Source: Halichondria panicea (Eukaryota > Porifera > Demospongiae > Suberitida > Halichondriidae). From it: 64,000 nt of DNA. The translations under genes were made by a program, and so were the position numbers. Shown piece by piece: positions 32,283 to 61,681 of this stretch (within the stretch, counting starts at the first letter, position 1; every line of letters starts with the position of its first letter). The stretch lies in assembly GCF_963675165.1 (NCBI RefSeq), contig NC_087382.1, positions 6,496,315 to 6,560,314 on the forward strand, given 5' to 3'. Below the pieces are notes generated by a model. It saw only the letters and a list, made by a program, of their open reading frames with translations, did no database searches and was not told the DNA's origin.

Positions 32283-35200
32283 TCACATGAAGACCTCTGG
32301 TTTTGAATCGATGGTGTCTTCAGAGCTACAAGTGAAATAGTTCTCTATAATTATACATTTGACTGTGATACAAGCAAATTCGTATACCTTGGCTCCATGT
32401 CAGCAAAGGGGAGTCTATCCTCTTCTTTTGCAGTATTCTCATTCTTAAATCTTACCATTCCCAAAACTCCGCTACGAGATAAGAAATGTACATGGAACGA
32501 TCAATAATGATAATGACATACCTGGTCTCACTTAGTTTACGCTTTCTGATGAGCAGTACACTCAACAAAACAACAATCCCAACAAGGATAATGATAACAA
32601 ACAGGCCAATAACAACAGTCACAATCTCAGTTGGTGATGTAAGCGGTTCAGTAACAACAGTCACAATCTCAGTCGGGGATGTAGTTACTTGACCTATCTC
32701 ACAGTCAGGAGAGCGCAGGGTATCCAAGGAAGTGATACAGCTTGCATCAACATTAAATCGGAAAAATCCAGCAATTATCATTGCATCATCACTATTAACC
32801 CATGCTTGAATTAGAGACACAAGATCTTGGGCATTGTAACTGTCGCTCCCTATAATCCGAGCACGATACACAACTTGGTCAACCAAACCATCAGCACAAC
32901 TGAATACACTATTTTGAAGATGGTCAGCAGTTACATCACATGAGCAGAGCTCATTGATTTCGTTAATAATTGCATCCTTTATTGTTTTCAAACGTTGCTC
33001 TGTATCTCCAACCTTCAAATAAATACACAATGACACACACATACATGTAGGACTGTAACATACTTGAAAGCTTGAGCACTTGTCAACAGGTCCAAACTTT
33101 AACTGAACGAATGCCACTCTCCCTAAATAAAAATAAATGTATGTCTGTGGCAAACTATAATTGAGGTACTCACCTCGATCAGCCACCCCACCAGTTGTAC
33201 TGCCAGTAACCGATGTTTCTTGTCCTAATTCGTCTTCCGTGCTTGCAACGACGTTGAAAGTGTATGTTGTTCCAGGAGTAAGTGGGCTAATGCGTACAGT
33301 GCTTACAGAAGGTTGAACAGTTACCCTGCCAGACTCAGAGAATTCAACATCTTCACCAAGTGGACTCTCCCAGTTGACAAGAGAGCTGTAAGTCACCTAA
33401 TGGCATTATACACAGTATTAAAGATCTCTATTACTAAGAATGTGGCTTACGATGAACTCATCAATAGGAAGAAATGGTGGCTGAGGAAGCTCCCACTGGA
33501 TGGTCATAGAAGAATTCGTTGCCTTAATCACCCGAAAGCTTTGAAGAATGGGTAGAACTGGAAAGGAATATATAACAATCACAAACAAGGCTAGTATGTT
33601 AAAATACCAGGTGTTGGAACATCCACTAACGAGAGGTTCGATATTCTTCCTTCATTTAAGCTATCACCTACTGGAATTGACGCTGTTACTTGAACACCGT
33701 ACATCGCATCTGTTGAAGGCACAGTAACATTTCCTGATGTGGCTGATCCTGAAAATACCTGCAAGTGGTAAAATAATGGTAGTATGTAGAAACTATATTC
33801 GTAGCTATAGATCAACGCTACTGATTCATGCAAATAATTTATACGTATGTTGACTACTAACAGCAGTGATAACAATTGGAGTTTGCACAGCCTGTCTCCT
33901 CTTATTTCCTGTTCCACCATCATCAGACACACCAAATAGTGTGATGTAAATAGTGTATCTAATTATCACTCCGTTTGCAACAACAGGAGGCCTCCAGCTG
34001 ATTTCAATGGTCTTGATACCAACTATCCTCACTCCGATATCCCTCGGAGGTGAAGGTGCTGAAGGATTAAAAGGATGAATGACAACCAACTAAAAGTTAT
34101 CTTTCCATACAGCCGAATTTACCTGGTGGAAGTGTCCTAATTGTACGCGTCGGTGAAAATGATGATACACGTAGGTCCGTCCGGACAGCTTGCACTTGAA
34201 AAACATAGGATCTGCTTGGATTTAGATCATTCACAGTGTAGGTATAGTTTGTTTCTTCAGCAATGATGTGACGAATTGATATTACAACACGGGAGAAAAA
34301 CGATGTCACAAATTCATAGTAGTTGAGATTGTACTCCAAGATACGGTGCCCGCCATCACATGAAGGTCTCTCCCAGCCTATCTTTATCGAATTGCTTGTC
34401 ACAGTAAGCGGAAAAACGCGATTGGGTCTTACAGGTGTTGCTGCATATCATAAAAGTAGACATAAACAAGGCTTAAAAAAACAATTTTGTGAACTTACAA
34501 CTAATGATTAGAGTGAAAGTTTTTCGTTGATTAGTCTGTGTGCTCAAGTCATTTGCAACACATGTATAAACTCCTCCATCGCAGGTGTTTAAACGTCGAA
34601 ATGCAGCAATTTGCAGAACTGCACTCCCGTTGCTATATCGTCCAACTCTTAAGTTTCTGTCATCTATTTCCACTTTTCTACCACTAGGACTGAACCAATC
34701 AATTTTCACATTTTGTCTTGTGCTGCCACAATGAATGTTCAAGTTCCTATTGAAAGTGAAGCGGATCACTCTATCGATACCGTCTCCATTAAGGCCAAAG
34801 CTGCTGATTATGGGTTCGGCTCCTGCATAGGGGATACATAACGATATAAAGCAGAGCTTTTTTCGGACTTTTAAATAATCTTACCCACAGCAAAAGTCTG
34901 CCCGGTGAGAGAGATAGACCGTGGTCCTCGCCCTCCAGCATTTACTGCAAGTATACTGAAGGTGTACATGGTGGAGGGAATTAGACCACCAACAATTCTT
35001 GCTACATCAAAGTCGGTGCTGCTTGTGAGGTACTCTATTTGACGTTCACCACCACCCTGAGGAGAAACAAAAACTATATAGGAAGTGATGTCACCATTCT
35101 GATGGTTGCGTAAAGGATCTTCCCATTGAATTTCGATTGCTGAGCTGTTGAGGACGATAATATGGAAGTCAGTTGGTGGTCCAGTTGGAGCTATACAAAT

Positions 35201-38200
35201 AGAGTTGGTAAAATATGTTAATGCTTAATGAATGCAATATACTCACGTAAAGCAAAAGTTGTGAAGTTCACAGCGACTGATTCTGGCCCAGATATTGAAC
35301 GAAAGAAGCAAGCATCAAATCTTACTACTGGACTGACAGTCACCATGTACGTGTCCCCCACAATCAAACTGGTGACCTCAATTTCAGTGCGGGGGTGGGA
35401 GACGGTCCGACTTGATCGAAACGTGGTGCTGCTAGACCAATAGAAAACTCGGTATGAGAATGACGCAACGATGTTTGGGAAATCGAATGCCTGCAAATTG
35501 AAAGGTATAACTATTACTTTCATGCGTGTAGTTTGTGTTTTATGAAAGAGTCATTTAAGCTACATCTCAGCAAAAAACAATACATGTATGTTACGCCCAA
35601 GGGCTGAGTGCAATAATTATATGCCAGATCCCGAGTGCACGTACGTGTTATAACTAGTTTATATCCCGAGGGCATAGCTCAGGGGAACACCCTCGAGAGG
35701 CCCAGCAGCCTATTGTGTTACCCTTTCCTTTTGGATAAATATCAATTCAACACTGTCTTAGCAACACAATAAATAGAACTGCACAAAATGACAGAGACAA
35801 CCCTAGACACAGCTCTATCTCCTTTCTCTTCTAAACTATATTATTGTGCCAGTATGTGCATTAAGGAACAATGAATGGCTTGACAAAAACCAGTTCCAAC
35901 GCACTACTGCAAAATAGCCCCACCCCACTTCTGCTGGCTGCAAATCAGCCCCTCCCTACGGTCTACGTCTCAACCAAGTCACCTCTACTGTAACACTGCT
36001 GCAAAACAGCTCGAGCTTCCAGCAAAAACAGAGCCGCTTCTAGATACTTAGTGCTATGGTGAAGCAGCCATGCATCACTAGGAACATAGTTTTATAATCT
36101 TCCACAAATATGAACTGGACGTTTGTGTTTAACATTATGTCATTTTATTATGTCAGTCCAGGAGTACATTAAGATGTAGATTTTAATGTACTCCTGGTCA
36201 GTCTTAATGCCAGAGGGATGCATTACAGGGGCCAATGTAGCCAGGATTTTGAGGAAGGGGGTGCTATCACGACGAAAGAGGGAGCAAAGTCCCTAATTTT
36301 TAGCCGCGCAGCGCCGAAATTTGGTTGACCGAAAGCCACACCTCTTATTAATGACGTAATAATTAATAGTTTGGCGTGGCCCAATCTTCTAATTGCATAG
36401 AGAAGCCTATTTTGCTACGAAAGAGAACTAGTCTATAGATCTAAGCCAGAATAGCTCACAGTTTAAAGACCAATCGTTTTGCTTGCCTACTAGCTAGCCA
36501 ACTGCAGCAAGATCTGGAAGAGAAGGGGGTGCTCAGCTAGACAATCAAATACACTTTGTGTACAATCTCAGATAGAAAGGGGTGCTTGAGCACCACGAGC
36601 CCCCCCCTGGCTACGCCCCTGCATTATGACTTCGCGGTTAGTGCATTTTGCAATCAGCAACAATGTAGCAACGGGTACTACATAAAATATTATACCTAAA
36701 TGATTTTTGTGACCTTACCTCCCATTGAATTGTAGCAGTAACAGGTTGCACGTCGGTGACAACCACATTGGATACAGTTCCAAGAAAATCTTCACCTATA
36801 GAAGGACTTGAAACATTTTAAGAAAACAAACTCTCTAATGACATACCTGGATTACACACCACTGACACATCGTCTCTATGCCTACAGTTATGCACACCCC
36901 AACCACGATGAGTGCAATCTTCTAGTACCTCAGCACTAGAGGGGCAATTGAGATCGTCTAACCAGATAGGACCTAGGAAAAATACATAAAACCTGAAAGC
37001 AATACAGAAACTATATTCACAGCATTAAATTGCAACCCGAATTTTTTATCATGCTAAGAATTGATTTTCCACTCAAGCACTCACCTGCTCCAGGAGAAAA
37101 TCGACGAAAAGGAACACAAAGAGCACCGCTGAAATTTAAGGCTCGGCATATGACATTTGCGTCACTTGTGCCAAACGAGTCATCACAAACAGTTCCCCAA
37201 GTATTGTTGTACATTACTTCCACTCGACCACTGAAGCTCGAGCCAGATAGTAGAGAACCAAGCCGAATCTGGATACTTGTTGGTTTTACTAGAGATGATT
37301 AGAACATGCAGTTGTCAACAGTTAATTAATTGTATGCAAGCAGCTGCATACTTACTAGTAGCATTTGTCCGAAAGAGTAATGGCTGCGAGAGAGAACCTA
37401 TGATGTAGGAGAAGCATATTGTTCGAGAATATCGAAAATCAACACCCATTTGAAGTGAGTATTCCGTGTCACGTTTTAGATTGGTTAAGACCATAATTGT
37501 TTCATCATCCCTTTCCCCTATAGAGTCTGGGAAGAAGTACGAATTTCTTTGGAATACATCCTCAACACCACTTTCTGCATAACTTATACGATAACGTATG
37601 GTGTTTGCCCCTTCAGGTAGTTGTGACCTTTTAACATTCTGTTGGAGGCAGTAAGGTAACAACAATCAAACACAACGTACTTACCTTGAATCTGACAGCA
37701 AGAGTGGTAGTGGTAGCATTGACGAGATGCAAGACAGGTGGGGGATTTACATCATTCTGATCTGCACAAAGACAAGATGTTGTCACAATGATGTCAGGGT
37801 GAGGTCCCTGACAAAGACTCGTGACTCTATTATGTAATAGAAGTAGTAGACACTCAGTCAGCGGATGTCAGCTATAATTATAAGTATGGGTGTGTGCATG
37901 CGGCAGCCAAAATATGCTCAACTAATTTGTCATTACATTCACTATCATAAATAACTTGCACAAAAATTTACCTGACAAGCAAACAACTCCAGCATCTTCA
38001 CGATGGGTACAGAATGTTGGAGGATCACCTAGACCAATGAAGCTGCAGTCATCAAGACAATCCTCATTCCCGCGACAGCGCACATCATCCAACAAAATTG
38101 GTGATGATATGGGGCCCTGACCAAATCCAGCACGGCTCACAGCACAACCTCCACCTCTTTCAAATCCCATCATTCTGATTGGGACAAATACACCTAGAGT

Positions 38201-38532
38201 TTAATAATTACTATAGCGCTGTACCTGCACACAACATTTACATCAGCCAGAGACCAAAAGTCATCGCAGACTGTACCCCAAGTCCCATTGAATTTGATTT
38301 CAACTCTTCCCATGAAGTCCCCATATGTACCATCCACTAAACGTATATCTTGTATGGCATCCTCCTTCAAACAAGTTGTATTTTGCCCTGCATAATAATA
38401 GACAGTCACAGTTATTACTATTTTACAGTCATGTAACTTACCAAAACTATTCTTTATTGCAGCCAGTATGACAACCAAGAATGCAACCTTAATGTTGGCC
38501 ATTGCCATTGCGTGTACTTTTGTAAAAAGCAT
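32283..38532 (-). CDS. Receptor A: SRCR/FN3/Ig type I membrane protein
   Basis: Twenty exons splice in frame to about 1256 residues: 38532-38442, 38387-38225, 38174-37972, 37761-37685, 37638-37356, 37288-37085, 36972-36847, 36795-36719, 35490-35247, 35190-34885, 34822-34499, 34440-34123, 34058-33862, 33758-33608, 33557-33451, 33396-33174, 33122-33064, 33012-32522, 32471-32388 and 32325-32283. Order: signal peptide ([15 protein letters not shown]; the second or third Met may be the true start), SRCR1 ([11 protein letters not shown].. AGFGQGP), FN3, SRCR2 ([12 protein letters not shown]), two FN3, Ig ([18 protein letters not shown]), three FN3, a cysteine-containing juxtamembrane module, a TM helix ([20 protein letters not shown]), a basic stop-transfer (RKRK) and a tail of about 50 residues. 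It is probably a cell-surface recognition or adhesion receptor. It is paralogous to receptor B downstream, with which it shares exon number, phases and several exact exon lengths. The ligand is unknown. Confidence 0.9.
35491..36718. other. Long intron 8 of receptor A with mobile DNA
   Basis: This contains a hAT-like MITE (36226-36621), a short palindrome near 36150-36200 (CAGTCCAGGAGTACATTAA with its mirror TTAATGTACTCCTGGTCAG) and otherwise no coding sequence. The homologous intron of receptor B (48814/49849 region equivalents) is much shorter. Confidence 0.5.
36226..36621. mobile_element. hAT-like MITE (CAGGGG.. / ..CCCCTG)
   Basis: The left end CAGGGGCCAATGTAGCCAGG and right end CCCCTGGCTACGCCCCTG are inverted. 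CATTA directly abuts both ends, and G/C-rich tracts GAAGGGGGTGCT occur inside. It lies in a receptor A intron. Confidence 0.7.
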
Positions 38533-39369
38533 GCAGTATATTTAATACAGTAGGAGCATCCTTATATACAGCTAGCAAGCAAGCAGCAGGTAGGGCTTCC
38601 CAAACAGGAACTTTAACAAAGAGTGTTTTGTAGGTGGGTGTTAATTTGTGCATGATCACATTCGTACTGAGTGCAGCGCTAGACAACCCACTGCCTCACA
38701 TGTTGTAAATTTTGTCTACATAATTATAGTTGTTGCTAAATTCACATGACTGCGTGCATAGATCATGCACTATGCAATAGTCAGTCATGTCCACGCAAAC
38801 ATACATGGACTATATATATACCACGGGAATAAAAAGTGGCTAACAAAATATATAGACATCACATTAATTTAACGTATAACGTAGACACCAGTTAGCTACA
38901 TAGGAAAGTGCCTCAGAGGAGGCCTAGGTACATGTAGGCAAGAGGTGTGCGAGCACAGCAGTGTTAGACACTGTTTTGTTGGTGTCCACATGATTTAGAA
39001 ACCGATAAGGCACATTAGTACCCTCACAACGCTCGGGATACTAAAGCATGTAGCCTTTGTACTTCTAAATCCTATACACCTCCAAAACAGTGTCTAACTA
39101 TTACGTAAAATTACTACAACCTATAATGATCGTGCATAACAAAATAATAGCCAAACGAACGCATGCATGACTGTAACGTGCTTGCAGATTGAATGGTGAC
39201 AATGACAACGCAGTTAAGGGAGCATGGCATGCATCTGTAATACTGAATACTGTATTCAACTACGACGCTAGAATGGGCCATAGAAACATGAATGTAAGCA
39301 ACATTGCATGTCCGTAAAGATTGTTGATCCCATTGTCAGCCAATTAAGCATTAAACTCAGTAACAATGA

Positions 39370-39785
39370 CAGCACCCGTTGGTGCTGATACCTCAGTGGA
39401 TGTGTCAAACGTAACGTAACTAATACACACACGATTATCATGAAGAACAATTTTTGCAGTAAATTTTGCTGCATGCAGGCAGAATCATAGAGAAACTCAA
39501 AGAGTTGGAAATAATCGGCCCATAAAAAGAATGCCAAAAGTCTAAAATTAATGGCCTGCTGTGCACCAGTAGAGCCTAATTGCAACAGCTAGCGTTCTAG
39601 TGCAGAGCTTACTAAGTAGAGTAGCAACACTCCATGGTAAGTTTTGCTGTAGTATGTATGTACTCTTCTGAAAAGCTGCAACGGCATTCGAAAACATGAC
39701 TTGAAGCCTATAGAAACTCTGATTTGCACTTCATCGATCCTTGAGCAGCTTTAGCAGTCTACACAGACACACAGATAGACAAACC
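39370..39785. repeat. Dispersed repeat family R1, copy 3
   Basis: It shares CAGCTAGCGTTCTAGTGCAG, GTAGAGTAGCAACACTCCAT and the closing ACACAGACACACAGATAGAC with the copies at 3625 and 9005. Confidence 0.6.
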
Positions 39786-40914
39786 TTATACCTCCCACTC
39801 ACATGCACTGAGGCATAATAACCACAATCATGCAACCCTGAAGTGGTAATACCCTGTACAAAAAACATCGAGGGACTGTAATTTACAAGTAAAGGAAGTA
39901 ATAAGATTACATATTTATACTTATTTTACAAATACAAAATTATATTTTGTGAAGGAGGATACATGTCAAGAGTATACGTATGATAAGAAATCTAGCAATG
40001 ATCCACTTAACGGCAGGGGCAGCTAGGTACTTCAAAGGGACATAGCTATAGCAAGTTTCCCAAACATTAAATGACGGTCAACAAAGCTTTGCTGTCAATC
40101 TGCTCTAAAATACGTTCAGGCTGCTACCAATAATTACATTCTATAGCTTAGACTATGTAGGAGCAAGCATGTTGCAGCATCCGTTCATTACCACAAGATA
40201 AGTACCAGGAAATCCCAAGAGAGTTTGTGGGCTTTGCACTTAACAGTGGTCACAGGACATGAGAAGCCAGCCTAATAATTAATGCAGCCAACAAGGCACC
40301 ACCAGTTTACTCTATGTCTGCCTCTGATCTGGTGCACTGAGCATCAGTGTGGCCTCTCATTGTTAATGGTCAGCACATAATGTACCCATTGTAGTCATAG
40401 TAGAACTAGTGTTCAAGCTGGCGCTGTGCTAATGCCTCTCGCCATGTTTTTGCTTTCGCTCAAAAGTATTAGAGTGTTATCTATAATGAATTTTATATTA
40501 AAGTTAGCTTATCTATATAAAGTCACTGAGAAGAAAAGACTTATTTACATGCATCTATTGTAAGTTATTATTTTTTGTATTATGTGGCTTACCAGGACAT
40601 CAAGAAAGAAGAAAATTGATTCTTCCAGGATCTGTAGTTCAGTGTATATAATATCTAAGAAGAAAAGACCTGTGTACATGCATATTGTTATCTATATTGT
40701 TATATGGTAGTGTTTTGTGGCTTACCAGGCCCTCAAGACAAAGATGATTCTGCCAGGAGGATCTGGATCTGGATCTTGGATATTATTTTCTCACACATGG
40801 GGAATGAGCGCGCATGCGCATTACATCCACAGGAATAATTAAAGGGTGTGTCCAAAGAGATCAATTTTACAAATGGCTACTGTACTGCTAGCTAGCTGTT
40901 TTAACAGATATTTT

Positions 40915-41255
40915 CTGAGTATTGTAGCTAACAAAAAGCTAGCGCTTTAGTGCAAGGCTAACTCATATGTTGAATAGAAAGTTTGTGCGGACAGATGATG
41001 CTATGAAAGATTCTGAAGAGACTGCAACAGCCTTCAATGTGAGTCAAACTAGCCATAACTCGAGAAAGAAGCTTTAGTTTGCTAATCCACGAATCAAAAT
41101 CCAAGAGAACGTGGCTAGAAGCCTATAAAAGCTGTTAGTTTTCGTCGCATTGTAACCGTTGAGCAGTTATAGCTGGAATACACACACACACACACAGACA
41201 GACACACACACAGTCAGCTTTACCGTATCCCTCGTGCGGCTACGCCTCGAGGCAT
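40915..41255 (-). repeat. Dispersed repeat family R2, copy 2
   Basis: Inverted, near-identical copy of 4389-4775. The block AGAAAGTTTGTGCGGACAGA to ACGCCTCGAGGCATAA is the complement of the first copy, with an (AC)n tract at the matching place. Confidence 0.7.
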
Positions 41256-41403
41256 AACAATCACCCTAAATAAATAAAACCCTACTCACCCACAAAGATC
41301 ATCAGATATATTTTGGGCTAAGTATTCTGAAGGCACAAATAATAACAATAGTAGCTAGTATAGTCAATGCATAATTATACACATGTAAATAGAGCAAACA
41401 TTT

Positions 41404-44400
41404 CTAGTTGTCCTTAGGTTTTGAGTCTGAATCATAGACAGGGTTATCAAGACAAATCCTGCAGAAGTAAGACATTTTATCATAGAGACTCCACCCATTC
41501 CTTCCTGACAATAATGCAGCTGGGATACTCAGGGCGTATCGACCCCCTAAGGGGTGAGGGCATGCAACTGATTAGATTAGGAAAAATTCTTAACGTAAAT
41601 AGTTTGTCTGAGACATTCGGTCCAGCCATGCGTAACATTAATGTTGATTGCTGTGTTTTTTCCTCATTGGATCCGTTAAAAAGTGCTTCTATCTGTTTGC
41701 TGTATGTCTTAGAGGTGATAAACTCCCACCAGCTAAAAGTTATTTTCGGTGTAGAAGTCATAGAGTACACGCCCTTTTTTCCTTGCTAATACCATAGACG
41801 ATATAGTACTGATGTGGAGGGAAGTCTTAGAAGCTATCGTCGTTACACGCAGGTGTATGTCAGAAACCTTGTAAACGTTTTGTTTATATAACAACCAGAG
41901 TGTAGTAAACAGTGTGCAAATCAGTGAAAGTGACCTGCACACATCGGTACTTATACAGTGGGCTTGCAGGTAAGAGTTTAAACACTAGTTTTCCTAAGAG
42001 AATATCATAATTATTGTAGCACGTAGCTACATGTATCTATTAATTATCTTGTAAAATACTTTGTGTGAGATTTCAGAAAATATTTACAATGTAGGTTACT
42101 AATAATACTTCAATGTACATTGTAATCTACTTAGGAGCACACAACGGTGCATGCTGTACAAAGCCTAAAGCATGAGCTGGTTGCACTGGTTGTGTGAGAT
42201 TATTCTAAGCCTGCTGAGCCTACTAGTTTGCATCTCTGCTGATAAAAACCTTCATGATACAGTAGTAGTAGCTAGGCATATATAGTCAAGCTAGTGAAAA
42301 ATACAGCTTCAGAAATATAGTAGGCACTGTACTTTGCAAGTTGCTTGTCACTGCACAGTAAATGGGCGTTGTCCAGAGGAGGTTCGACATGCGTGTACAA
42401 ATCACTACAAGTTCAGTGCATTGTGGCCTGGATGTTATCACTTGACCCAATGACATCAATGCACTGAACTTGTACATGTAGTGATTCGTGACCCAATGAC
42501 ATCAATGCATTGAACTTGTAGTGATTCGTGCACGCATGTCGGACCTCCTCTGGGCACTCCTCTGGGCATTGTCTGTGTACTACTGTGGTTACTAGGATGT
42601 GTTGACTCGTAACTTTCTTTGTGTCCTCTAATCTTTACGTGTGCTCTTTTAGTGCAAGTAGCACTTACAATTATAACTAAAAAAGTGCCATATACTGGCT
42701 CTCCAGCGCATATCAACAGCTGTATAGCAAGTCAACAGAGTGCTGCATGTGCATACAGCTAACTAAGTTAGCAAATTTAAAATGTCAATTTTTAGCTCAT
42801 TCACTGTTTACTACAGACTCAGTAGTACTATAGACAACGCCCATTAAGTGTGCACAATGCCACACCACTGCAAAGTACAGTATCTGCTATATTACAGTTG
42901 CCAACCATTCCCTGGGACAAAGACCATTCATATTTCACAAAATTCCTTTCTTTGAAATAATAGCGCTAGCATTGCAAAATGCAGAGGCTGCAAAACGCAT
43001 TGATTTTACTTCGGTTAGTCAACTAGCAAAATGCTACTAACTATACCGGAAGTAATTAGGGAGCGTTCAAAGAGCAATTAACATTCCAGGCACTAGGTGT
43101 ACTGTACATGTGTATTTACATCACATACAAATTCTACGATTTTGATTGAAATCAACCTTTGGAATTTTGAAGTCTTGAAATAATGAACGTGCACGTACAT
43201 TGGGTATGACAATCTGTTTTTGCATACCTACAAAATGAGAATGAGTGTGAAACTTACGTGCTCACTGTCAGACCCGGAACATCCTCCTCCACCAGCCTCT
43301 TATCCCTGCACGGATGAATTACATGAACATAAATTGAAGCAATGGATCAGTTCACATACACTATGATCTAAAAGAAAAAAATTGACTGTGCAACTATCGA
43401 TCTCACCTAAAGCCACTTGTGAAGTACCGAACCAAGACGATCACCAACAGCACAATGAAAACTGACAGTAGGATAGCGATAATACATCCGATAATTAAAC
43501 CACCAATTTCTCCCCCTGTTAATAAATCTGTCTGGGGTGTAGGTCTGGCAGAGGTGATAGTTTCAACAGGTATGGAAGTCACTGTGAATGTAATTTCTCC
43601 CCCTGTTAATACATCTGTCAGGGGCGTAGGCCTGGCAGATGTGGTAGTTTCAACAGGTATGGAAGTCACTGTTTCCACAATAAAACAGTCTGGTGCCAAT
43701 AAGCTATCCAGTGCGGTAGCACAACGAGGATCAACATGGAATCTCAACGAATCTACCAAAATCGAGGCTTTCCTGGTCTGAACCCAATCACTAACAAGGG
43801 CAACTAAGTGACTTGCACTGTATTTCTCAGTCCCAACAATCCTTGCTCTGTAAATGATTTGCTGGTCATTTGGAACTCCCCTGCAGCTTATTTCCTCATT
43901 TCGAATATTATTATCACTTAGAGTACAGGAAGGGCATACAATGTTATTCAAAACACTCAAAATTGAAACGTGCAGTGATTGCAAGTGACGAGAAGCATCA
44001 ACCTAAAAGCATACATGTACATGAATGAACACGACCATGGCAAGCTGTATAATGTGTTTTTCACAAACCTGCCATCCAGTGCAACTGTTGACTGGCCCCA
44101 ACATGAGTTGAAAGAATGCCAGCCGCTCTGTAAAACAATAACACTAAACATGTACAGCTTTTAATTTAGTAGCAATACGGCATCTGAACAACAGTGTACA
44201 TTTTTAGAGTCACTCAACGAGTACTCAAGCACTGCAGTGCTACATTACTAGAGGCATAATTATGTTATCATTATTGTTACACTGTACATGTGGGCAGCCA
44301 CGGGTATAGTAGTTGTTTGGTTTGTTCGTTTATTTGAGTCTGCTTATAACTAAAGTAGAAAGCTATAATTGTAAATGGTTTGTTGGTCTTGGGAGGCTTC

Positions 44401-47400
44401 TTTGCTGACTCTGGATCCTAGCATCAGGACTCATACTTCTTTAAGACTCCAGGCTTCTTTGCTGTGATCCTAGACCACAGTGCATGTCTCATGCACCGCT
44501 GTTCTCAAATGTTTCAGCATGCCTCCAGTCTGGTTTAGTTTTATTGCTCCTGAGTTGCTGTGCTACACAGCTCAGTCATACATACTACATGCACTGGCTG
44601 CATTACATCACCATAATCATGTCACCAGCCAAGGGTGTGCACTTTAGTGCTCTAGTATTTATGGTTGCAATAGTAATTAGGATTGTCTATACAGAATGTG
44701 TTCCCCGTCCATTTACGAGTACAACATACCCATTGTTGTACATATGATAACTTCGACACAACTCTCTCTCGCTTGGTTGTTCCCACGCTTTTTGCAATGT
44801 GTTTTTAAAGGTTAAACATGCACTGACACATTTTTGTCCATTGCAAAGTGTGTGTCGAAATAGCGTAGTTATACAGTTGTAATTGCAGTAAAAGTATACT
44901 CACCCTCTGTAGTTGGTAATGTATCTGCAATGATTGCTACAACAGTTCCAGCTCCTCTACTCGTCAACACCGATACTCCAATTATGTAGTGTGTGAAAGG
45001 GGTCAGAGCAGTCAGCTTAGCCACATTGTATGCAAACACTTGCTTCATTGACTCCACTGTTCGAACCAAATACCCTTCTTTACTCAGCCATTCAATAGAT
45101 GCGTGGTATGTCACCTGAAAGGTGTATTTCATACGTGTATTAAATAATCACGGTTTGTTGCAATGAAATTAAAATGGTTGTGAATGAAGGAAAATATTGC
45201 AAAAGCTCACCTGAAATCCCAGAATCGGCTCATCAGTAGAAGTGGGATAGTCCCATGACAGTGTGATTGAGGAGTTGGTGGAGCTCCTTACCAACAAATT
45301 CCTAATGATTGGTATTGCTGTAAGAACACAAAATCATTGTATAACACGGAGCAAAATTAATACATTAATGATGAGAGCAGCTGAAAAGTGCTCAAAACAC
45401 ACAAATCACACCTGGATCAGGAACATAGATGAGTTTTCCTTCTGACGACTCCCCTTCAATTTCATCCCCACCATTGAGCACAGTAGCAGTGACTGTCACC
45501 ACATAGTATACAGAGGCTAAAGGTACTGTGATGTTGGCAGCACCAGTACTCCCGGAAAATATCTGGATATTATATTTTCTCCGAGTGATTGATTCCCATT
45601 TTAGAGAATGGAGGACAACATTCGATATTAGATAGACAGACATAAAACCATCAATTTACTACTGAAGAATCAAAAATAATAAAGTGATTGGTTATTATAA
45701 CGTTGAGGTAACGATGCAACAGATAGGTATAATTATATGCATGTGCAATGGAATGAACCTCCTACATGTATAACGGATTCTCCCATCAGAGGACAAACTA
45801 TAATAATAAGATCTGCATGGAAAGTACATGGGAAAAGTGCCTCGGAGGAGTTATACACCATGGGCCTTAATACCTACATGTATAGTACACCATTGTTATT
45901 GTAGTCAAGCCTCAAGGGCAAGGTTTGCGCATGCGCACTAAGTATCTGTTATTTAGCTATGGCACAGATTGAAATCTCTATATAAGAACAAAAAACCAAC
46001 TTCACACAGCCAAACCTTCGTGATCTATGACAGCAGATGACCTACATTCTCCCGGCTACTATTGCGTTCTGGAAAAGATCCTGTTTACCAAACAAAAACA
46101 CTAATGACCAGGCCAGGTTTGACGATGCTGTAAATGCACCACTTTGGCATCTAGGTGAGCAGACTCACAATCACCACAAACACACAGATAGACCAACCAC
46201 TATCGTCGGGTTAGGAAAAATAATCATGCACTGAGTGGTTATTATTGTAAGGCTTGACTAACCTTGACAATGGGGTCCACGTGCTCAGTGAGGGGACCCT
46301 CATCGAGGATGATATCTGGTTGTTGAACAGCATAAACAGTGTAAGAGATGATGATTCCATTCGGCTCAGCCGGCTCAGTCCACCGAACCTCCACAATGTT
46401 TGGAGCCGGATTCACGACCTCCAGAAACCGAGGGGGAGATGGTCCTTCAGGTATAAAATCAGGGTTGATAAAGGGTTCTGATAAATGTACAATAGGTATA
46501 TATGCAGCTCTTTATATTAAAGCACCGGTGTATAATGCCTTGGTGCAGTTCATACACATGGGTGTAGCAAGGACATATCTGCTGAATTGCGCTTAGAGAC
46601 AAAAATTTATCAATGCGAATGAGAAAAGATATGGATCTGAAAAGAGGTCAAAATCACAATGGCTCCAAGTGTAGCAGCTCTTTCCTCCACTGTATGGTCT
46701 TAACTACATTTGTACCATAATTATAGCAACATATCCAGTGTTAATAATAAAATTTCTACGAACAGATTTGATAAGCATAATTCTGGAGAGACGCAACTCA
46801 ATGTTAGTAAAGCAGCTACATTTGTATACCTTGAAAATAAGCTTTAATCTAGCTACTATGGTGCTCGCATTGCAACCATTGAGCAGGTACAGCTAGAATA
46901 CACAGACAGACAAACACAAGATCAGCTTTTATGTATTCCTTTGTTGCTAAGCTCGAGGTATAACAGCTACTGTTACTATACACACATTGGTAATTAATTC
47001 ACTTATAATTACACATAAGGTTTAGCTACGCTACCACATGTACATGTACAAGTACAACTGTATCATGCAGTTGTTGCCAAAGTGATTGCCGACACTAAGC
47101 TTACCTTCAGCAGTAGTCGTAATGATGTTTTCAAGGGAGAATTCGGAGGGGAGATATTCATCACTAATGGCTTGAACGCTGAAGTTGTACGATGTGTAAG
47201 GCTCCAGTCCCACCACTGTATAGTTCCTCAACGAAGGGTTCACATTGTACACATACATATTTGTAGTTGTAAGGTACTCCTGATAAGTATTTCTGTATCG
47301 AATTGTAAAGCCAGATATTCTGTGTCCACCGTCGCAAGGATGTTCGTCCCATGCAAGCACTACTGCAGACTTTGTAACTCGAAGGGCAGTTGGACTGCCT

Positions 47401-50400
47401 GGGCGAGGAGGCACATCTGCATTATTGGGAGAAATATACGGGTGAGAATTGAATGTTGTGAAGCATAATTATATACAAGCATAATTATTATTATACGTGT
47501 ACTAGAATTAATCAGTACATGTAGCTGAGAAGCAAACTAACACACCAGTAAACAGTAGAGTGAAAGTCCTCCTCTGTGTCTGCCCTTGTCTGTTTTGTAC
47601 CTCACAGGAGAACACTCCTGCGTCACAATAAGACACCAACCGGTTACTGGCTATCTGCAATACATTGGTGCCGTCATCATCATGCGAGACTTGTCTAAGA
47701 TTCTGGTCCATGGTGCCCACTGGAGCCCCATCACTTTTATACCAGGTCACAACTGCATTGACGCCATGAGTGTCACAGTGGACACGAATGTCAGAATTAT
47801 TTGGCCACACAGTGGCTCTGTCAAAGCCATCTCCATTGAGGCCAAACCCAGTTATTATGGGGACGAAATCTGATTAGTTCAAAAGTGTATAATTATACAT
47901 TCCTACCTCATGAAAACATACAACTGTACCTTCTCGAGGTGTAATGACTGTGAGATACACACTCCTGGGTCCATTGTCATTGGTGAATGCCAACACACTG
48001 CAGGTATACCCTGTGCTAGGAGTGAGCCCAACAAATATGTACTCTGTTGTGACATTAGAATCAACAATGACTTGTATTTCCTCATTGTCAGCAGGTCTTA
48101 GGAATAACTTGTAGCCTTTGATCACGCCATTTCTGTATTCTAAAAGTGGAAATCCCCATTGAAACTCGAGCGCTGTGCTATTTAGAGCAAGCACATGGAA
48201 AGCAGTAGGGGGAGCAGTCGGTGCTGGGAGAAGAGAAGGAAACATTTTGGTTGGCACTACACACCAAATGCATGCATTCTAAACAACGTTTCTATAAAAA
48301 GCAGTTTTATGATTGCAATTATAGCCAGGTAAACTCATTTGGAGACATAATTATGCAAATGAATTCAAAAAACTTTAGCGGTGCATGGAGATACCTGTTT
48401 CAACGGTAGTAGCTCTTACAGCTAAAGAAATCTTCCCAATAACTTTGTTCGTGCAATATTGATATTTGTACTCCGCTCGGACCTGGATACGATATGTGCT
48501 GTCAAAGAGGAGTTGAGTTGCAGTTGCCATGGTTTCAGTACCAGGAACAGTCACTCGAGTACTATGTCCTCTTGTAGAGAAAAAAACTGTGAACTCGGGC
48601 TCTACTACGTCCGGAGGGAATGGATACATCTGCAAGGATAGAATTTAGTTGTTGAAGGGGCACTAACACCGACAAAATTACCAACAAGATCTACATGTCT
48701 GGGGAAACATCAGCGATCTATATTCACCAATCACCAGTGAATTAATTAAACCATGGGCATCTCCTAGACAACTGTACAGTACGGAAGTAGGATATATTAT
48801 ATATAAACTCACTTTCCAGCTGACTGTGATAGATGTTGCACCAATTTGATCCACAGACAGTCTTGTAACCGGGGCTTTGTTTTCCTCTACGAAAGCAAAA
48901 GTATGAAATTGTACCCTTACACTGGATTGTACATGTATAACAATGCGGACCTTTCAAACAGATCACTCCAATATCCGCATCATGTTGACAATTGTGAACA
49001 CCCCATCCATTGAAGTCACAATCTTCGAGAATTTCATGGCCATGAGAGCAATCAACATTGTCCATCCAAATTGGACCTAAAGTAACATGTGTTTGCATTA
49101 ATTAACAGTACAATTTCTATGCAACTCACAAAAAACAGACAATAATTATATGCATGTGCGACTGTATCTCACCAGACCCTTGACCAAATCCAGCTTCGCG
49201 CACATGACACAGTGCTGAAGAAAAATTCAGAGATTGGCATATCACATTAGCCTCTGGAGAACCGAACGCATCATCGCAAACAGTACCCCATGAATTATTG
49301 TAGAACACCTCCACTCTCCCCATGAAGTCAATTCGTGGTGCTGGCGGAATAAGCCTGAGAGGCAATTTTGGAGTTTTTCCTATAGAATTGGACACACGCG
49401 TGTGTTAATAATTATACATGTACAAACACAGAACTGAATAATGTAAGAATCATTATAATCATTATTAATTTGTAAACAAATTGGCCCTATAGGGAAGTGG
49501 ACAAACTTACTCTCTTCAGCAGTTTTGACTTGAACCAAGGACCGCCTTCCGACTAGAAATCCACTGTTTCCACGCAGATGTACACACAGACCTTTCACTT
49601 CAGTTCTGATTTGAATTTTGTATGTAGTGTTTTTGACCAAGGAATGGATCACCACACTAAATTTACGATCCAGATTCACGGAGTACCTGACCTGTCTTGT
49701 AACAAATTGCTTCATAAATGTATTTGCAGTTTGTTCGAAGACATACACTCTGTGACGAATAAAACGGGTGTCTATCGGGATTTCTGGCACCTGGTAGTGG
49801 AGAACAAAATAAATGCAGGTGATACATGTATTTTTAATGTAAATATACCATCCACTCGACTGTGACAGTTGTAGAAGATGCATCAATTTGGCTAATGTTC
49901 ACTGGTCTCTGCACAGCGGAGACTGCAAAGAGAGTTTACACTCTGACGTTCGTACAGTACAATAATTAATGTACACCCTTACAGAAATGCAATGAGTGTG
50001 ACACGTGTGTGGCACATATCAGTTGCACGCATATACTCTCATAGCACACACTTCTGACATATATGCCACACGTGTGCTACACTTCAGAATTTCGCACTCA
50101 AGCGTGGTACAAGTGCAGGAGGAGAGTAACATAAAAGCTGTACTAAGAGTGCCCCATGAATGTACTGTGAATGCAGTCTGCACACGTGCTGCTCTTATTG
50201 TATGCACGCGTACTGCACCTATGTATTGCTTGTGTGTGGCATACGTGTATGGTATGCATGCCACACACATGTCACACGTGTGCATAACGTGTGTGATGCT
50301 TTTGTCTCACACCTATGCTTCCAGATTCAGCACACGTGCTACATACATGTAGCACGTGTGCTGCTTGCTTTATGCATGTATGATGCCCTTGCCATTGTTA

Positions 50401-53400
50401 CCATGGAAACTCAAGATATCGTCTATCCAATATAAAACTGCAGCATACAGTAGATCACATTATATACACGACTTGTGCTATATATATTTGTTCTTTTCCT
50501 AGTTCTCCAACCTCTGTTGCATAAGAAGTATATAGGCGTTTTCTTTTAGCTTTGCTTGCAGCTTGAAAATGTTCTTTTTACCTACATTAGAAAATAATGT
50601 GAAAACTACACTTCCTTGTACCAGGAGTGTATAAGGACTCCTGCTTGTACATATACTAATGTACCCACTACAGAAATAGAACCAACAGACTACTTACGTA
50701 GTATGTAAACAACTCACCAATCTCTAAAACAGTTTTCTCTGGGATTTTCTCCTTTGAACTTGTTGCCTGTAGCATTGCTTGTCACTGGTTGGTAAGACAC
50801 ATTAGCATTCTCTTCAGTCTTCAGCCAACTTTAAAAAAGAGCTATAAGTCCTTATTAACTAGAGCAGAATTTGACAAAGATTTGAAGTAAACTTTCGACA
50901 GCTGCTAGTAATACAGTGTGTGTGGAACGAGTGCAGTTGGCATGCGTGCAAGTACACGTGTGTGGCTTGTATGCAGTTTGCTCGCATACCAACTGGATGT
51001 GTGTGAAACGAGTGCAGTTGGCATGCGTGCAAGTACACGTGTGTGGCTTGTATGCGGTTCGCTCGCATACCAACTGGATGTGTGTGAAACGAGTGCAGTT
51101 GGCATGCGTGCAAGTACACGTGTGTGGCTTGTATGCGGTTCGCTCGCATACCAACTGGATGTGTGTGGAACGAGTGCAGTTGGCATGCGTGCAAGCACAC
51201 GTGTGTGGCTTGTATGCAGTTTGCTCATATACCAACTAGATGCGTGTGGAAGGCGTGCAACAGACACATGTGCAGGCTACATGCGTGTGGCATATATGTA
51301 CGATAGCCGTAAAGCTCGGTTCTCATGACACGCTTGTCCTGCACATAAATATCCATTGCACACGTGCAGCACTCATTGTTGCATGTGTGCAGCATACGTG
51401 CTGCACTTATACATTTCTGTAAGGGCAATCATTCAAAGAGTATACCTTACATGTAAGGCAGAGCAATTGTACAACAGTACCTTTTAATGACTAAATGAGT
51501 ATATTTATATAGTATTGCAAATCTACGAAACAAATGTAACACAAATGATGATCTAGATAAAAATTAATAATATCTCACATGATTGACAAACAACTTGGAT
51601 GGGGCTCCCTGTACAGATTTTGCCCCCGTATCCATCGAAGGAGCACATGTCCAGGCTTGTTTCATCACCAGCACAATTCACATTATTTATCCACACCGTT
51701 GCATTGTCAGGTCTACGTCCTAACACGAAGGGTTGTGTATAGGGAACAGCACAGACTGCCCATGGAAACCCCAAGTTTCTGAAGCAAGATACAGTGACTT
51801 GATCTAGACACTACACGTATACTGTATATCTAGTGATTGAGGACATGGAAATATTCAGGCAGAATTAAGCTCACCGACACACTGCTTTTGCAGTTTGAGA
51901 TGGTAACTGACTTCCACATACTGCACCCCATGTGTCATTGTACTGCACTTCAGCCCTTCCAGTGTGATTATAGCTGCTACCTACCAGTCTCAATCCCTCC
52001 AGGGCTAATTGGAACACATGCATGCACATGATTGTGATTGAATATCTATACACAATATCAGGAGTACATTCATATACTCCACTCCTGACAATATCTATAC
52101 ACACTATAGTAATACTAGAATGTTTTACGAACATCAAACATAATTATGCCACTTCGATTCGCAAAGGTATTTCACTGGCAAAACATTCTAGTAATACGAT
52201 ACACTGAAAGCCACTCCCTTTTTGCCTTTGGAAAGGGATTGGTAAGCTACTTATCTACTTATCAAAGAGTTGTTCCGTGCGTGAAGAATCTTCCACACGA
52301 AATAACCTTTGCAGACGTCACAAATACCGTATAGCGTGTATATTTCGAAGGTATAAATGTTCGCGACTTTCGCTGATCAAGCATGTATACCGTATAGCGG
52401 GTAAATTTTCGGGGGACAAAATATTCGTGGTTCAGCAATATTGAGACATTTCGTGGGTAATATTTTCGTGGTTGCTTAGCTTGCACTGCAGGTAAAGGTA
52501 GGCAAGGTCGCTTCATTCGTGGGTAAAATATTCGTGGTCATCTCCAACCACGAAAATTTTACCCCACGAAAATTACCCGCTATACGGTACAATGTATATC
52601 GTGAACATACTGAATACCCACGAATATAATATCGCATGCATGCATGCTGCAGAAAGGCTGCTCTTCCACGAACATTTATACTCGAAATATTCCCGCGATG
52701 CCATACTCAGGTGCCACCGCCCACACACTTTTACTGCACAATAAGCCTAAGTACATGTAGAAACGGCGGCTAAAAGTTCATTGTTCTACGCTGGGACACC
52801 TCTAGCTTTATACCAGACCCTTTTGGAATGCATAAGGTAAAAACAACAAGTGCTGTAATTGATGTAGTTACAGCACCACCATAATTTAAGCGCCACGTTA
52901 GTATCAGCATTATTTTTGAGGCCCTAAAAGAAGCGCTTGCCGTTGCTATATTTATTTTTTCTGGTGCTTCTTTTAGACATCAAGACGATCATCCTGCATC
53001 TTTGACTTCCTTCACACCTCTGAACAGTTGTTACAGTCAATGAATGTAGTTCACGAGTCAGTATCAACGTAAGGTGCAGCTAGCTAGCAAGTGAAACTGA
53101 GCTAGACCACGCCCATTTTCTCTAAATGTCTATACTAGCTGCAGAACATAAGCGCCATCATAAATTTAGACGCCAGCTGAACTGAACGCATTTTCGGTGT
53201 TCCAAAATATGCACCACTCAAAAGGGGAATTAATTGTTTCTGGTGCTGTAATTACATCAATCATAAATCATGGCACTAATCGTATGATATGCTATTTGTG
53301 ACTTGAGTTTGTACAGCAATTAATCCCGTATCAGTAACTGCACGTCGTCAAGCAAGTAATTGCAAGGGGGTTTGTTTTTAAATAATGGCCGCGTCTGCAA

Positions 53401-53671
53401 TGTTACTGTAAAACCTCTAATTCAGGCGACACTTTTTAAAAATAATTACGAAACCAGGATCAGCAAGGCTAATAGCACTCGGTTACGCCTTGTGCAATTA
53501 GTAGCATAAATAGCCTTGCCATTTCTTTACTCGTGCTAAGATTTATGATTGGCCACATAGCATCTTCTATTGATGATTTATTGATGGTAAGACTAGCGAG
53601 ACACCATCATCTTCACCTTGACATGAGCACACAACTGGAAGCACGAGGGCAATGATAAAAAGTCCAACCAT
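41404..53671 (-). CDS. Receptor B: SRCR/FN3/Ig type I membrane protein
   Basis: Twenty exons splice in frame to about 1250 residues: 53671-53617, 52004-51875, 51778-51579, 49922-49849, 49790-49511, 49379-49173, 49076-48951, 48886-48813, 48629-48395, 48223-47930, 47869-47546, 47416-47105, 46477-46263, 45562-45412, 45317-45211, 45114-44904, 44127-44069, 44002-43407, 43305-43258 and 41458-41404. Order: signal peptide ([17 protein letters not shown]), diverged SRCR1 (DTWGAVCGS), FN3, SRCR2 ([12 protein letters not shown].. AGFGQGS), two FN3, Ig ([17 protein letters not shown]), three FN3, juxtamembrane module, TM helix ([20 protein letters not shown]) and a tail ending [15 protein letters not shown]. 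Exon 19 could instead end at a stop (43254-43256), but a strong donor GTAAGTT precedes it, and the exon at 41458 continues in phase with an NPxY motif. It is a paralogue of receptor A. A surface recognition or adhesion role is inferred. Confidence 0.88.
41530..41770 (-). pseudogene. Possible retrotransposon Gag-like remnant
   Basis: A minus-strand open frame encodes [20 protein letters not shown] followed by [20 protein letters not shown] and KLFTLRIF. This loosely resembles the W..F..Y..(E)EKT..L.L..AG pattern of Ty3-type Gag. No protease, reverse transcriptase or LTR is nearby. It lies in the last intron of receptor B. The similarity is weak and could be chance. Confidence 0.25.
42361..42585. 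repeat. Inverted repeat with internal direct duplications
   Basis: GGCGTTGTCCAGAGGAGGTTCGACATGCGTG on the left (given in parts: CCAGAGGAGG, TCGACATGCGTG) is mirrored by CACGCATGTCGGACCTCCTCTGG on the right. Inside, GACCCAATGACATCAATGCA is present twice and CACTACAAGTTCA / TGAACTTGTAGTG pair. It is probably a rearranged MITE in the last intron of receptor B. Confidence 0.6.
43505..43678 (-). repeat. 87-bp coding duplication in receptor B stalk
   Basis: Two tandem copies encode [20 protein letters not shown] and LLTGGEI-like sequence directly before the TM helix. The period is 87 bp (29 codons), so the frame is kept. The Thr/Ser/Pro content suggests an O-glycosylated stalk. Confidence 0.85.
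49977..51426. mobile_element. 1.45-kb terminal-inverted-repeat element with tandem array
   Basis: The left end CCCTTACAGAAATGCAATGA is mirrored by the right end TACATTTCTGTAAGGG. The subterminal regions are both rich in CACGTGTG-type motifs. The interior holds an 81-bp array (50921-51244). It lies in intron 3 of receptor B. I see no transposase and no clear target duplication, so it is likely non-autonomous. Confidence 0.7.
50921..51244 (+). repeat. 81-bp tandem repeat, four copies
   Basis: Units start at 50921, 51002, 51083 and 51164, with a degenerate fifth start near 51242. Each contains ACGAGTGCAGTTGGCATGCG, CAAGTACACGTGTGTGGCTT and CATACCAACTGGAT. The period is 27 codons, so several frames on both strands are open across the whole array; these are not genes. 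Confidence 0.92.
52326..52697. mobile_element. Outer TACCGTATA-like element carrying a second one
   Basis: The left end TACCGTATAGCGTGTATATT, then AAGGTATAAATGTTCG, is partly mirrored on the right by CGAACATTTATACTCGAAAT. The 52388-52589 element sits inside it, so this looks like one MITE inserted in another. Confidence 0.5.
52388..52589. mobile_element. TACCGTATAGCGGGTAA MITE
   Basis: TACCGTATAGCGGGTAAATT is mirrored by AATTACCCGCTATACGGTA at the right end. Inner arms with ATTCGTGG / CCACGAA also pair. A fragment of about 80 bp of the same element recurs at 59705-59787 almost unchanged. Confidence 0.85.
52845..53265. repeat. Dispersed repeat R4, copy 1 (receptor B intron 1)
   Basis: Shares GCGCCACGT, TCAGCATTATTTTTGAG, CTAAAAGAAGC and CATCATCCTGCATCTTTG, in order, with 54125-54500. 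Only non-coding sequence is visible. Confidence 0.7.
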
Positions 53672-60101: not shown

Positions 60102-61290
60102 TCATGAACGTAAATATCTCTCAAGCGCAAATATATTATGCTTATCATATGCTCTTAAAAAGTGAGCTGCTTTTAAAATAATTTTATTCACTTTGTTTTT
60201 CTGCTTGACAGTGTAATGTTCAAATTGATCACCGTGACTACGTTGGAATGTTTGGAAGTCCCTCCTAAGTGTTATTGAAATTGCATCGTGATTAAAATCA
60301 TAGTGCAAGAATGTTAGCATTTTTTCTAATTCTGAAATCTTGTCATGTTTGACGTCTTCATAGTGCACTACCAGAATTGGTATTTCGTTTGAGATGCCAG
60401 AAGAGAACCAACGAGTGTACAGATTATACCAACGTATACATATCGAGAGCAAAAACTGGTTCCATTCATGGTTAGAACCTGTGGCAAATGCATCATGTTA
60501 ACTAATAATGATAGCAAACTAGAAGTACATAAAGTATAAACATAATTCACTCACCAAACATTTCTTTTCCCAGCGAATAAGTATGACTTTCATCAGTTAC
60601 ACCTCTAGCAGACACATTCTTTTTGGACTTCTGGACTGTAACAAATCGATTCCATTCGGACACAAAAGCATCGAAAGGATTTCGCACAAGAAGAATGGCG
60701 GATGCATAGTATCCATCATTGTGATGTGGATCTGCTCTCCTGTCGGGGTGAGCTACCCCTTCCCACTGATAGTCAGGAGTGTGAGTCTTGACCACTAATA
60801 CACTGGGGCCAACAACAAACTCGCCTACCATTCCACTGTTTCTGAGGGCAGGATCACAGTAAATTGCACCAGTACATATTCCAGTAACACGTTCCAAAAG
60901 CCCTCTAACCCACGTATTACCGGATCCTGTTTCACTTACTAATGCGACAACCTTTCGACTTCTTCCATCCATAAATTTGCAGGAAGGTTTAATAAGTGCA
61001 GCATCAACGTTAGTCATGTTTTGTACCAGACTTTTACATACTGTAAAAGATACCATCTCATCTGCAGAAAGTGCTGCACTACATACACTATCAGTGCATT
61101 TAGATGTAATGTCAGAAGGAATGGGTATTGTTTTTGATCCAACGGCATTGTTCACAAGTCGAACTGATTCAACCAAGGATGGTAGTTCCTTCTTTATTCC
61201 GTATAAAGGTGTTTCATAAAAAGTTAGGTACAATCCTACAAACCCCATTGTAGCCACAGCAACTGCAAACACTTTCTTCCAGTATTTCAT
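60102..61290 (-). CDS. WSCD-like Golgi sulfotransferase
   Basis: Two exons, 61290-60555 and 60478-60102, give 370 residues. The start was placed at the ATG of MKYWKKVFAVAVATMGFVGL because an in-frame stop lies shortly upstream and this gives a classic type II signal anchor (TM about 7-25). The catalytic domain shows the PAPS 5'-phosphosulfate loop (ETGSGNTWVRGLLE, about 120-133) and the 3'-phosphate motif (LLVRNPFDAFVSEWNR, about 200-215). The further KTHTPDYQW and PILVVHYEDVKHD match the sulfotransferase fold of WSCD1/2-type proteins. No WSC domain precedes it, unlike vertebrate WSCD proteins. It probably transfers sulfate to a glycan in the Golgi lumen; the acceptor is unknown. The gene lies head-to-head with ASPM. 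Confidence 0.85.
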
Positions 61291-61681
61291 AATTTTGTCT
61301 TGATAGGTACTAGGTTTCTGGAACCCACTGTCGGATCCCCACACTCGGTACGGTCCTAGATAAGGTCCAAGTCAGCAGTCGACCTTTAAACCAGAGAGGG
61401 CGGCGTATTCGTGAGACTAGGGATGTCGTAATACTTATAAACTGTGCCAACCAATCAGATTCCTTGATTCAAATACATGACTTGCAGTCGTCTTGAAATT
61501 TTATTGTCTGTCTTTGAGCTTCAGATTCAACTGGGTGGGACGTCAATACAGCTAGCTAGCTGGAGCTGAGGTAAGTAAGGCAACATTGTTTTACAACAAC
61601 AGAATTTCATATATAGTAGATGTGATCTATAATGTGTGATGTACCCATGATTTACTCATGTCCAGTCCATAGGTTAACATT
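61291..61681. promoter_or_regulatory. Divergent promoter region, sulfotransferase / ASPM
   Basis: 391 bp separate the two start codons. It contains CCAATCAG (61452-61459), a good CCAAT-box candidate of the kind often found in cell-cycle promoters. No TATA is evident. Confidence 0.45.

Follow-up and report, generated by a model that had tools for sequence, protein, structure and literature searches.

Introduction

Hundreds of sponge genes with SRCR domains are thought to recognise microbes, and for their extra cysteine the published suggestion is polymer formation. This report describes two neighbouring genes of this kind, here called A and B, which lie on the minus strand of a 64,000-nucleotide stretch of the genome of the sponge Halichondria panicea (NC_087382.1, positions 6,496,315 to 6,560,314; "the window" below). 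According to the accessible part of a published survey, tandem arrays hold 158 of 296 sponge SRCR genes, and a seven-cysteine type of SRCR domain, Group C, occurs mainly in sponge; in the authors' models its extra cysteine stays outside the internal bonds, and polymer formation is suggested (PMC10855680). The same text gives 765 Group C genes found "predominantly" there, a figure not reconciled with the 296 (PMC10855680). SRCR domains combined with FN3 or Ig domains have also been reported in sponges (available portions of PMC4772301, PMC6208332, and PMC8242945), and the accessible portion of PMC12723187 adds nothing further on architecture. Outside sponges, the soluble protein AIM/CD5L provides a case in which an unpaired SRCR cysteine is bonded to IgM; its ligand binding depends on a pair of aspartates in calcium site 1 (PMC11525585, in part).

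Genes A and B resemble the sponge SRCR genes of that survey in having seven core cysteines per SRCR domain, a tandem arrangement and matching exon lengths within a duplicate pair (six of seven exons there, 5 of 20 in A and B), and depart from them in other respects. Each SRCR domain is encoded by three exons there and by two here; and the genes of a six-gene subcluster of Amphimedon have 2 to 6 SRCR domains each, whereas A and B alternate SRCR with FN3 and Ig domains and have a single-cysteine FN3 domain behind each domain with an odd number of cysteines (PMC10855680). The sponge genes with SRCR, FN3, and Ig share these domains with A and B, although the accessible texts give the co-occurrence and not the order seen here (PMC4772301, PMC6208332, PMC8242945). 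AIM/CD5L has an unpaired SRCR cysteine as well, there between C4 and C5, but it is of Group B, has three SRCR domains with no FN3 or Ig domain mentioned in the part available, and spends the cysteine on IgM (PMC11525585). Adhesion receptors of the NCAM type share the succession of Ig and FN3, whereas in A and B a lone Ig domain is flanked by FN3 domains and the outer end is made up of SRCR domains.

Because SRCR-FN3-Ig combinations and tandem SRCR duplicates have already been published in sponges, the basic finding is an ordinary one. What seems new to us is a pattern of cysteines kept in both copies and an unnamed six-cysteine module in front of the membrane. Probably A and B stem from an old tandem duplication and encode type I receptors of the sponge SRCR kind that cross the cell membrane once, and in which stapled domains would bind the ligand.

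Gene Models and Exon Plan

The two complete gene models, each of 20 exons, stand head to tail (B 53671-41404, A 38508-32283) and, when spliced, give proteins of 1248 (A) and 1250 residues (B) without internal stop. Splice sites were picked by hand for GT-AG, and such a placement was possible for all 38 introns. The exons are as follows.

A exon 1: 38442..38508, minus strand, start codon and hydrophobic leader
A exon 2: 38225..38387, minus strand, SRCR1, first part
A exon 3: 37972..38174, minus strand, SRCR1, second part
A exon 4: 37685..37761, minus strand, FN3-1, first part
A exon 5: 37356..37638, minus strand, FN3-1, second part; single cysteine C245
A exon 6: 37085..37288, minus strand, SRCR2, first part
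A exon 7: 36847..36972, minus strand, SRCR2, second part; 126 bp
A exon 8: 36719..36795, minus strand, FN3-2, first part
A exon 9: 35247..35490, minus strand, FN3-2, second part; single cysteine C461
A exon 10: 34885..35190, minus strand, FN3-3
A exon 11: 34499..34822, minus strand, Ig, 324 bp; three cysteines, the extra one C664
A exon 12: 34123..34440, minus strand, FN3-4; single cysteine C719
A exon 13: 33862..34058, minus strand, FN3-5, first part
A exon 14: 33608..33758, minus strand, FN3-5, second part; 151 bp
A exon 15: 33451..33557, minus strand, FN3-6, first part; 107 bp
A exon 16: 33174..33396, minus strand, FN3-6, second part
A exon 17: 33064..33122, minus strand, start of the six-cysteine membrane-proximal module; 59 bp
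A exon 18: 32522..33012, minus strand, rest of the module, stalk, transmembrane segment
A exon 19: 32388..32471, minus strand, cytoplasmic tail
A exon 20: 32283..32325, minus strand, end of the tail and stop

B exon 1: 53617..53671, minus strand, start codon and hydrophobic leader
B exon 2: 51875..52004, minus strand, SRCR1, first part
B exon 3: 51579..51778, minus strand, SRCR1, second part
B exon 4: 49849..49922, minus strand, FN3-1, first part
B exon 5: 49511..49790, minus strand, FN3-1, second part; single cysteine C222
B exon 6: 49173..49379, minus strand, SRCR2, first part
B exon 7: 48951..49076, minus strand, SRCR2, second part; 126 bp
B exon 8: 48813..48886, minus strand, FN3-2, first part
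B exon 9: 48395..48629, minus strand, FN3-2, second part; single cysteine C441
B exon 10: 47930..48223, minus strand, FN3-3
B exon 11: 47546..47869, minus strand, Ig, 324 bp; three cysteines, of which the extra one, C640, is modelled in the E-F turn
B exon 12: 47105..47416, minus strand, FN3-4; single cysteine C694, modelled in the B-C loop
B exon 13: 46263..46477, minus strand, FN3-5, first part; alternative in-frame start at 46444
B exon 14: 45412..45562, minus strand, FN3-5, second part; 151 bp
B exon 15: 45211..45317, minus strand, FN3-6, first part; 107 bp
B exon 16: 44904..45114, minus strand, FN3-6, second part
B exon 17: 44069..44127, minus strand, start of the six-cysteine membrane-proximal module; 59 bp
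B exon 18: 43407..44002, minus strand, rest of the module, duplicated Thr/Pro stalk repeat, transmembrane segment
B exon 19: 43258..43305, minus strand, cytoplasmic tail
B exon 20: 41404..41458, minus strand, end of the tail (NPVY, then DSKP, which A has too) and stop; position set by phase and by likeness to A

A first-pass annotation, made from the sequence of the window, had described two 20-exon genes with a common plan, and the open spliced models and the agreement of intron phase at 19 of 19 introns bear this out. Its end points are exact: gene B starts with its ATG at 53671, and the stop codon of gene A ends at 32283. The exon pairs of equal length are precisely the five that it listed (126, 324, 151, 107, and 59 bp, or 5 of 20), a number reached in none of 200,000 shuffles of exon order. 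Exon lengths are congruent modulo 3 in all 20 pairs, and 12 of the 19 introns fall at the identical column of the protein alignment, the remaining seven being off by 1-21 columns. Since the other copy guided the choice of some splice sites, homology and these statistics cannot be taken as independent. The least certain exon is the last one of B, since it was chosen for its similarity to A among 160 AG sites in the scanned stretch that give at least 10 residues; it has a good acceptor, continues phase 2 and ends in DSDSKPKDN, which resembles the end of A. The in-frame alternative acceptor of B exon 13 lies 33 bp downstream. A comparison of the open reading frames (ORFs) of the A region with those of the whole window revealed no third copy, the other matches of low E-value being short or repeat-like. 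An 81-bp tandem repeat (4.2 copies, 95% matches) at 50917-51259, within intron 3 of B, is open in several frames.

Domain Content

In both proteins the order is leader, SRCR1-FN3-1, SRCR2-FN3-2, FN3-3, Ig-FN3-4, FN3-5, FN3-6, membrane-proximal module, transmembrane segment and short tail, so the succession first read from the DNA is supported by the gene models and by Pfam. A profile search of the spliced proteins, which had been proposed as a check, matched SRCR in two stretches per protein (E 8.7e-52 in A and 6.7e-45 in B; 174 and 151.9 bits for PF00530 against a cut-off of 26.1, which places both in the SRCR superfamily) and fn3 in six stretches per protein (E 3.4e-49 in A, 6.5e-53 in B). 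The Ig domain was above the curated cut-off in B only (Ig_2, 28.9 against 27 bits). Other matches above cut-off, namely Pur_ac_phosph_N in A and B (strongest around FN3-6), Interfer-bind and SRCR_2 in A, and FN3_DSCAM-DSCAML_C in B, are taken as related models lying on the FN3 and SRCR stretches already known.

Hydrophobicity scanning gave a leader and one further strong hydrophobic segment in each protein, a laxer threshold adding two small patches in the FN3 region of B. With this single transmembrane segment, a leader and an ectodomain of Ig and FN3 domains, the proteins have the make-up of type I Ig/FN3 adhesion receptors, the Ig of A being the one part under its cut-off. N-glycosylation sequons number 13 in A and 14 in B. 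Among PDB sequences, SRCR2-FN3-2 of A matched 26 distinct entries through its SRCR part (nine of them M130/CD163), and Ig-FN3-4 of A matched 15, including titin, ROBO2, LAR, EphB2, myomesin, and NCAM2. The structural model of Ig-FN3-4 of B had NCAM2 and NCAM as its top matches, no TM-score exceeding 0.40 for the model as a whole.

A Cysteine Pattern Kept in Both Copies

Cysteines are conserved between the copies far beyond the rest of the sequence: of the 28 cysteines of A that have an aligned residue in B, 26 (93%) are cysteine there too, against 37% identity for all residues. SRCR1 has nine in A and seven in B, SRCR2 seven in each, and the Ig domain three in each. FN3-1, FN3-2, and FN3-4 have one each in both proteins, FN3-3 none in A and one in B, and FN3-5 and FN3-6 none. 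The module exons contribute six in A and seven in B, the seventh of B being inside the transmembrane segment. The core number per SRCR domain is seven in all four; the two additional cysteines of A SRCR1, C28 and C116, may form an extra pair, C116 being Ser in B and C28 aligning with a cysteine at the end of the B leader.

This content separates the domains from SRCR Groups A and B. All four carry six cysteines and at least one more, as opposed to the six cysteines and three disulfides of Group A. Domains of Group B have eight cysteines, C1 and C4 among them; here the place of C4 in the CD163 repeats is occupied by Phe in all four, and the added cysteine lies further on, between C3 and C5. By the number of their core cysteines they are Group C-like, which is indirectly in keeping with a sponge origin.

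In both copies each of the three non-FN3 domains with an odd number of cysteines (SRCR1, SRCR2, and Ig) stands directly before an FN3 domain with a single cysteine. Odd extracellular cysteines usually need a partner, and the pattern suggests interdomain disulfides that would link an SRCR or Ig domain to the FN3 domain behind it. The receptors could thus be composed of disulfide-stapled recognition units in which the seventh SRCR cysteine, or the extra Ig cysteine, is bonded to the cysteine of the next FN3, a proposal that we put forward tentatively. The candidate bonds are SRCR1 to FN3-1 (C87-C245 in A, C71-C222 in B), SRCR2 to FN3-2 (C322-C461 in A, C304-C441 in B) and Ig to FN3-4 (C664-C719 in A, C640-C694 in B). 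In the first two the FN3 cysteine would be located in the FG loop; by alignment, with strands named by eye, it falls between the F and G strands, at the end facing the preceding domain. In the third it would be in the B-C loop.

For this last pair an AlphaFold model of Ig-FN3-4 of B, of modest quality (mean pLDDT, a per-residue confidence score, 63.1; predicted TM-score 0.44) and read across an unspliced intron, puts the extra Ig cysteine (model residue 81) in the E-F turn, a short one that separates strands 68-72 and 84-91, and the cysteine of FN3-4 (178) in the B-C loop, which separates strands 168-172 and 184-194. Where an Ig domain is followed by an FN3 domain, this turn and this loop lie opposite each other. 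The model thus gives a position to both cysteines, and the bond between them is a proposal.

Several points weigh against this explanation of the pair. The further cysteine of B FN3-3 breaks the parity pattern; three single-cysteine FN3 domains out of six would fall behind the three odd domains by chance once in 20 arrangements; and the sample is small, a single gene pair whose members are not independent. Because of this chance and this dependence the parity pattern alone is suggestive only. On the side of the gene and domain models, the Ig of A is under the curated Pfam cut-off (ig, 15.9 against 21.8 bits), and B exon 20, hence the NPVY motif of the predicted tail, owes its placement to phase and to a brief stretch of likeness with A. 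No interdomain disulfide of an FN3 protein came up in literature searches, and a search for seven-cysteine sponge SRCR domains was empty although a Group C paper with other wording exists, so that both are weak evidence of absence.

The odd cysteines could instead bond other chains, either making receptor oligomers or capturing a partner covalently as AIM/CD5L captures IgM. External disulfides leading to polymers have been proposed for Group C (accessible part of PMC10855680), and C191 of AIM, unpaired between C4 and C5 of its SRCR2, bonds C414 of IgM (PMC11525585, in part). The extra cysteines of the A and B SRCR domains are likewise between C3 and C5, a likeness at the level of the region. 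Outward bonding would leave the single cysteines of FN3-1, FN3-2, and FN3-4 and the third Ig cysteine unexplained unless all of them bonded outward, and in A the only FN3 domains with a cysteine are those directly preceded by an odd non-FN3 domain. We regard this explanation as unlikely.

If the staples exist, they would explain in general terms the function of the seventh cysteine in sponge SRCR domains, a question that the conserved candidate partner in the neighbouring FN3 opens to experiment.

Proposed Mode of Action

Interdomain bonds and an immune function, whether in self/non-self or in microbe recognition, are inferences for A and B. In the mechanism envisaged, the two outer SRCR domains and the Ig domain would bind ligand, which might be a microbial or damaged-self surface molecule or another cell. 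An interdomain disulfide would fix each of these domains rigidly to the FN3 that follows it, the other FN3 domains would act together with the module as a spacer, and binding would be read out through adaptors on the short tail.

The motif VCDD occurs in three of the four SRCR domains, B SRCR1 having VCGS at this place of the alignment. We take VCDD to contain the aspartates of calcium site 1; by that reading, three domains would keep these aspartates and B SRCR1 would have lost them.

A and B might also be adhesion molecules, cell-cell or cell-matrix and perhaps engaged in self-recognition, rather than receptors for microbes. The strings of Ig and FN3 domains, the PDB neighbours of Ig-FN3-4 (among them NCAM, ROBO, contactin, and receptor phosphatases) and the lack of an immune signalling domain in the Pfam scan speak for such a role. 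Against it, an SRCR domain in the outermost position often serves as a scavenger module that binds ligand. A response to microbes is reported for some sponge SRCR genes (PMC6208332, in the part available). Neither point is decisive for this pair, and we hold adhesion to be the less likely function.

Membrane-Proximal Module, Stalk and Tail

The module encoded by exons 17 and 18 has about 128-130 residues, six cysteines in each copy and 39% identity between A and B. Similar modules precede the membrane in other sponge proteins. Searches for SEA or any other Pfam family gave none for A and, for B, only an unrelated sub-threshold match (Cnd3, E 0.06); there was no NCBIfam match, no PDB sequence match under E 1.5, and no relative in the viral and genome contig collections, neither of which is eukaryotic. 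The AlphaFold model of the module (mean pLDDT 35.9), built with a retained 17-residue intron, is unusable, also for judging a likeness to the SEA fold.

An 87-bp unit present 1.9 times (92% matches) at 43505-43672 on the minus strand duplicates the Thr/Pro-rich stalk in B exon 18 and accounts for much of the extra length of this exon over that of A. The tails that follow the membrane are short, and the Pfam scan of A and B found no kinase, death, TIR or other signalling domain in them. The predicted tail of B carries NPVY and that of A is devoid of tyrosine. NPXY is an endocytosis or adaptor motif, and the two copies would therefore couple differently. With their differences in tail motifs and SRCR1, they form a natural pair in which to study division of work in an old duplicate receptor.

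Age of the Duplication

Over the aligned length A and B are identical at 429 of 1161 residues (37.0%), and at four-fold sites in 64 of 212, near the 28% expected at saturation. Comparison of the nucleotide sequences of the two regions gave a single match, of 59 bases, between SRCR1 of A and SRCR2 of B. By the NG86 method the nonsynonymous divergence (dN) is 0.69 and the synonymous one (dS) not estimable, the routine returning -1. The low protein identity, the near-saturated four-fold sites and the solitary nucleotide match indicate an old duplication and not one produced by assembly; the first two of these rule out a haplotype or assembly duplicate. That one copy is decaying, or else such a duplicate, is accordingly most improbable as a whole: B SRCR1, with its VCGS and the lowest score against the other three SRCR domains, would fit decay, but both reading frames are intact over 20 exons.

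The first-pass annotation had derived the pair from one duplication of an already complete gene, with no word on its age. This holds for the exon plan, for FN3-2 to FN3-6, each of which pairs A with B in the tree that FastTree gives for all 12 FN3 domains (support 0.83-0.97), and for SRCR2, whose copies are reciprocal best matches by score (329). It does not extend by sequence to the outermost unit, since the FN3-1 domains are unpaired in the tree and A SRCR1 scores higher with B SRCR2 (228) than with B SRCR1 (154), so that the two SRCR1 are not best matches. Here the correspondence, of SRCR1 as of FN3-1, rests on the places and phases of introns: the SRCR1 intron is in phase 2 after a VCR motif in both copies, unlike that of SRCR2 (phase 1), which ties the two SRCR1 together. 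SRCR1 is also less identical between copies than SRCR2 (41/107 against 58/110, Fisher p 0.04), as are exons 2-5 compared with exons 6-18 (65/209 against 351/906, p 0.04). The outermost unit may be the fastest to diverge, the signal being marginal and sought after the fact.

Distant SRCR Relatives and Neighbouring Genes

In the contig collections, relatives of the SRCR domains were found on one giant-virus-like contig and one bacterial contig, with cysteines counted by eye on the translations (one and three domains, six cysteines each). The former (L001, from IMG/VR, giant-virus-like by eye) encodes at 5545-8046 on the plus strand a protein of 833 residues, in which the single SRCR is followed by a proline-rich stretch and hydrophobic segments. 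The latter (L002, a contig of the gammaproteobacterial metagenome-assembled genome SB0662_bin_58) has at 4507-12294, plus strand, a very large open frame whose 3' end is beyond the locus and in which the three SRCR domains are set among apparent FN3, cadherin-like, and leucine-rich stretches, as judged by eye; it is perhaps an animal-like recognition protein in a bacterium, possibly a sponge symbiont. Inspection of the printed translations of both contigs by eye revealed no FN3 directly behind an SRCR, and these six-cysteine domains are weak contrasts to the stapled arrangement rather than a test of it.

Elsewhere in the window, ORFs outside A and B gave the following.

54951-55256, plus strand: glycogen-binding domain of the AMPK beta subunit (PF16561, E 5.4e-21), past the 5' end of B and on the opposite strand
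60550-61371: ORF with no Pfam match, which may be an upstream exon of the sulfotransferase ORF below
60105-60497, minus strand: sulfotransferase domain ORF (PF00685, E 1.8e-5)
424-3204, minus strand: two ORFs matching aldehyde dehydrogenase (PF00171, E 4.2e-26 and 4.6e-12)

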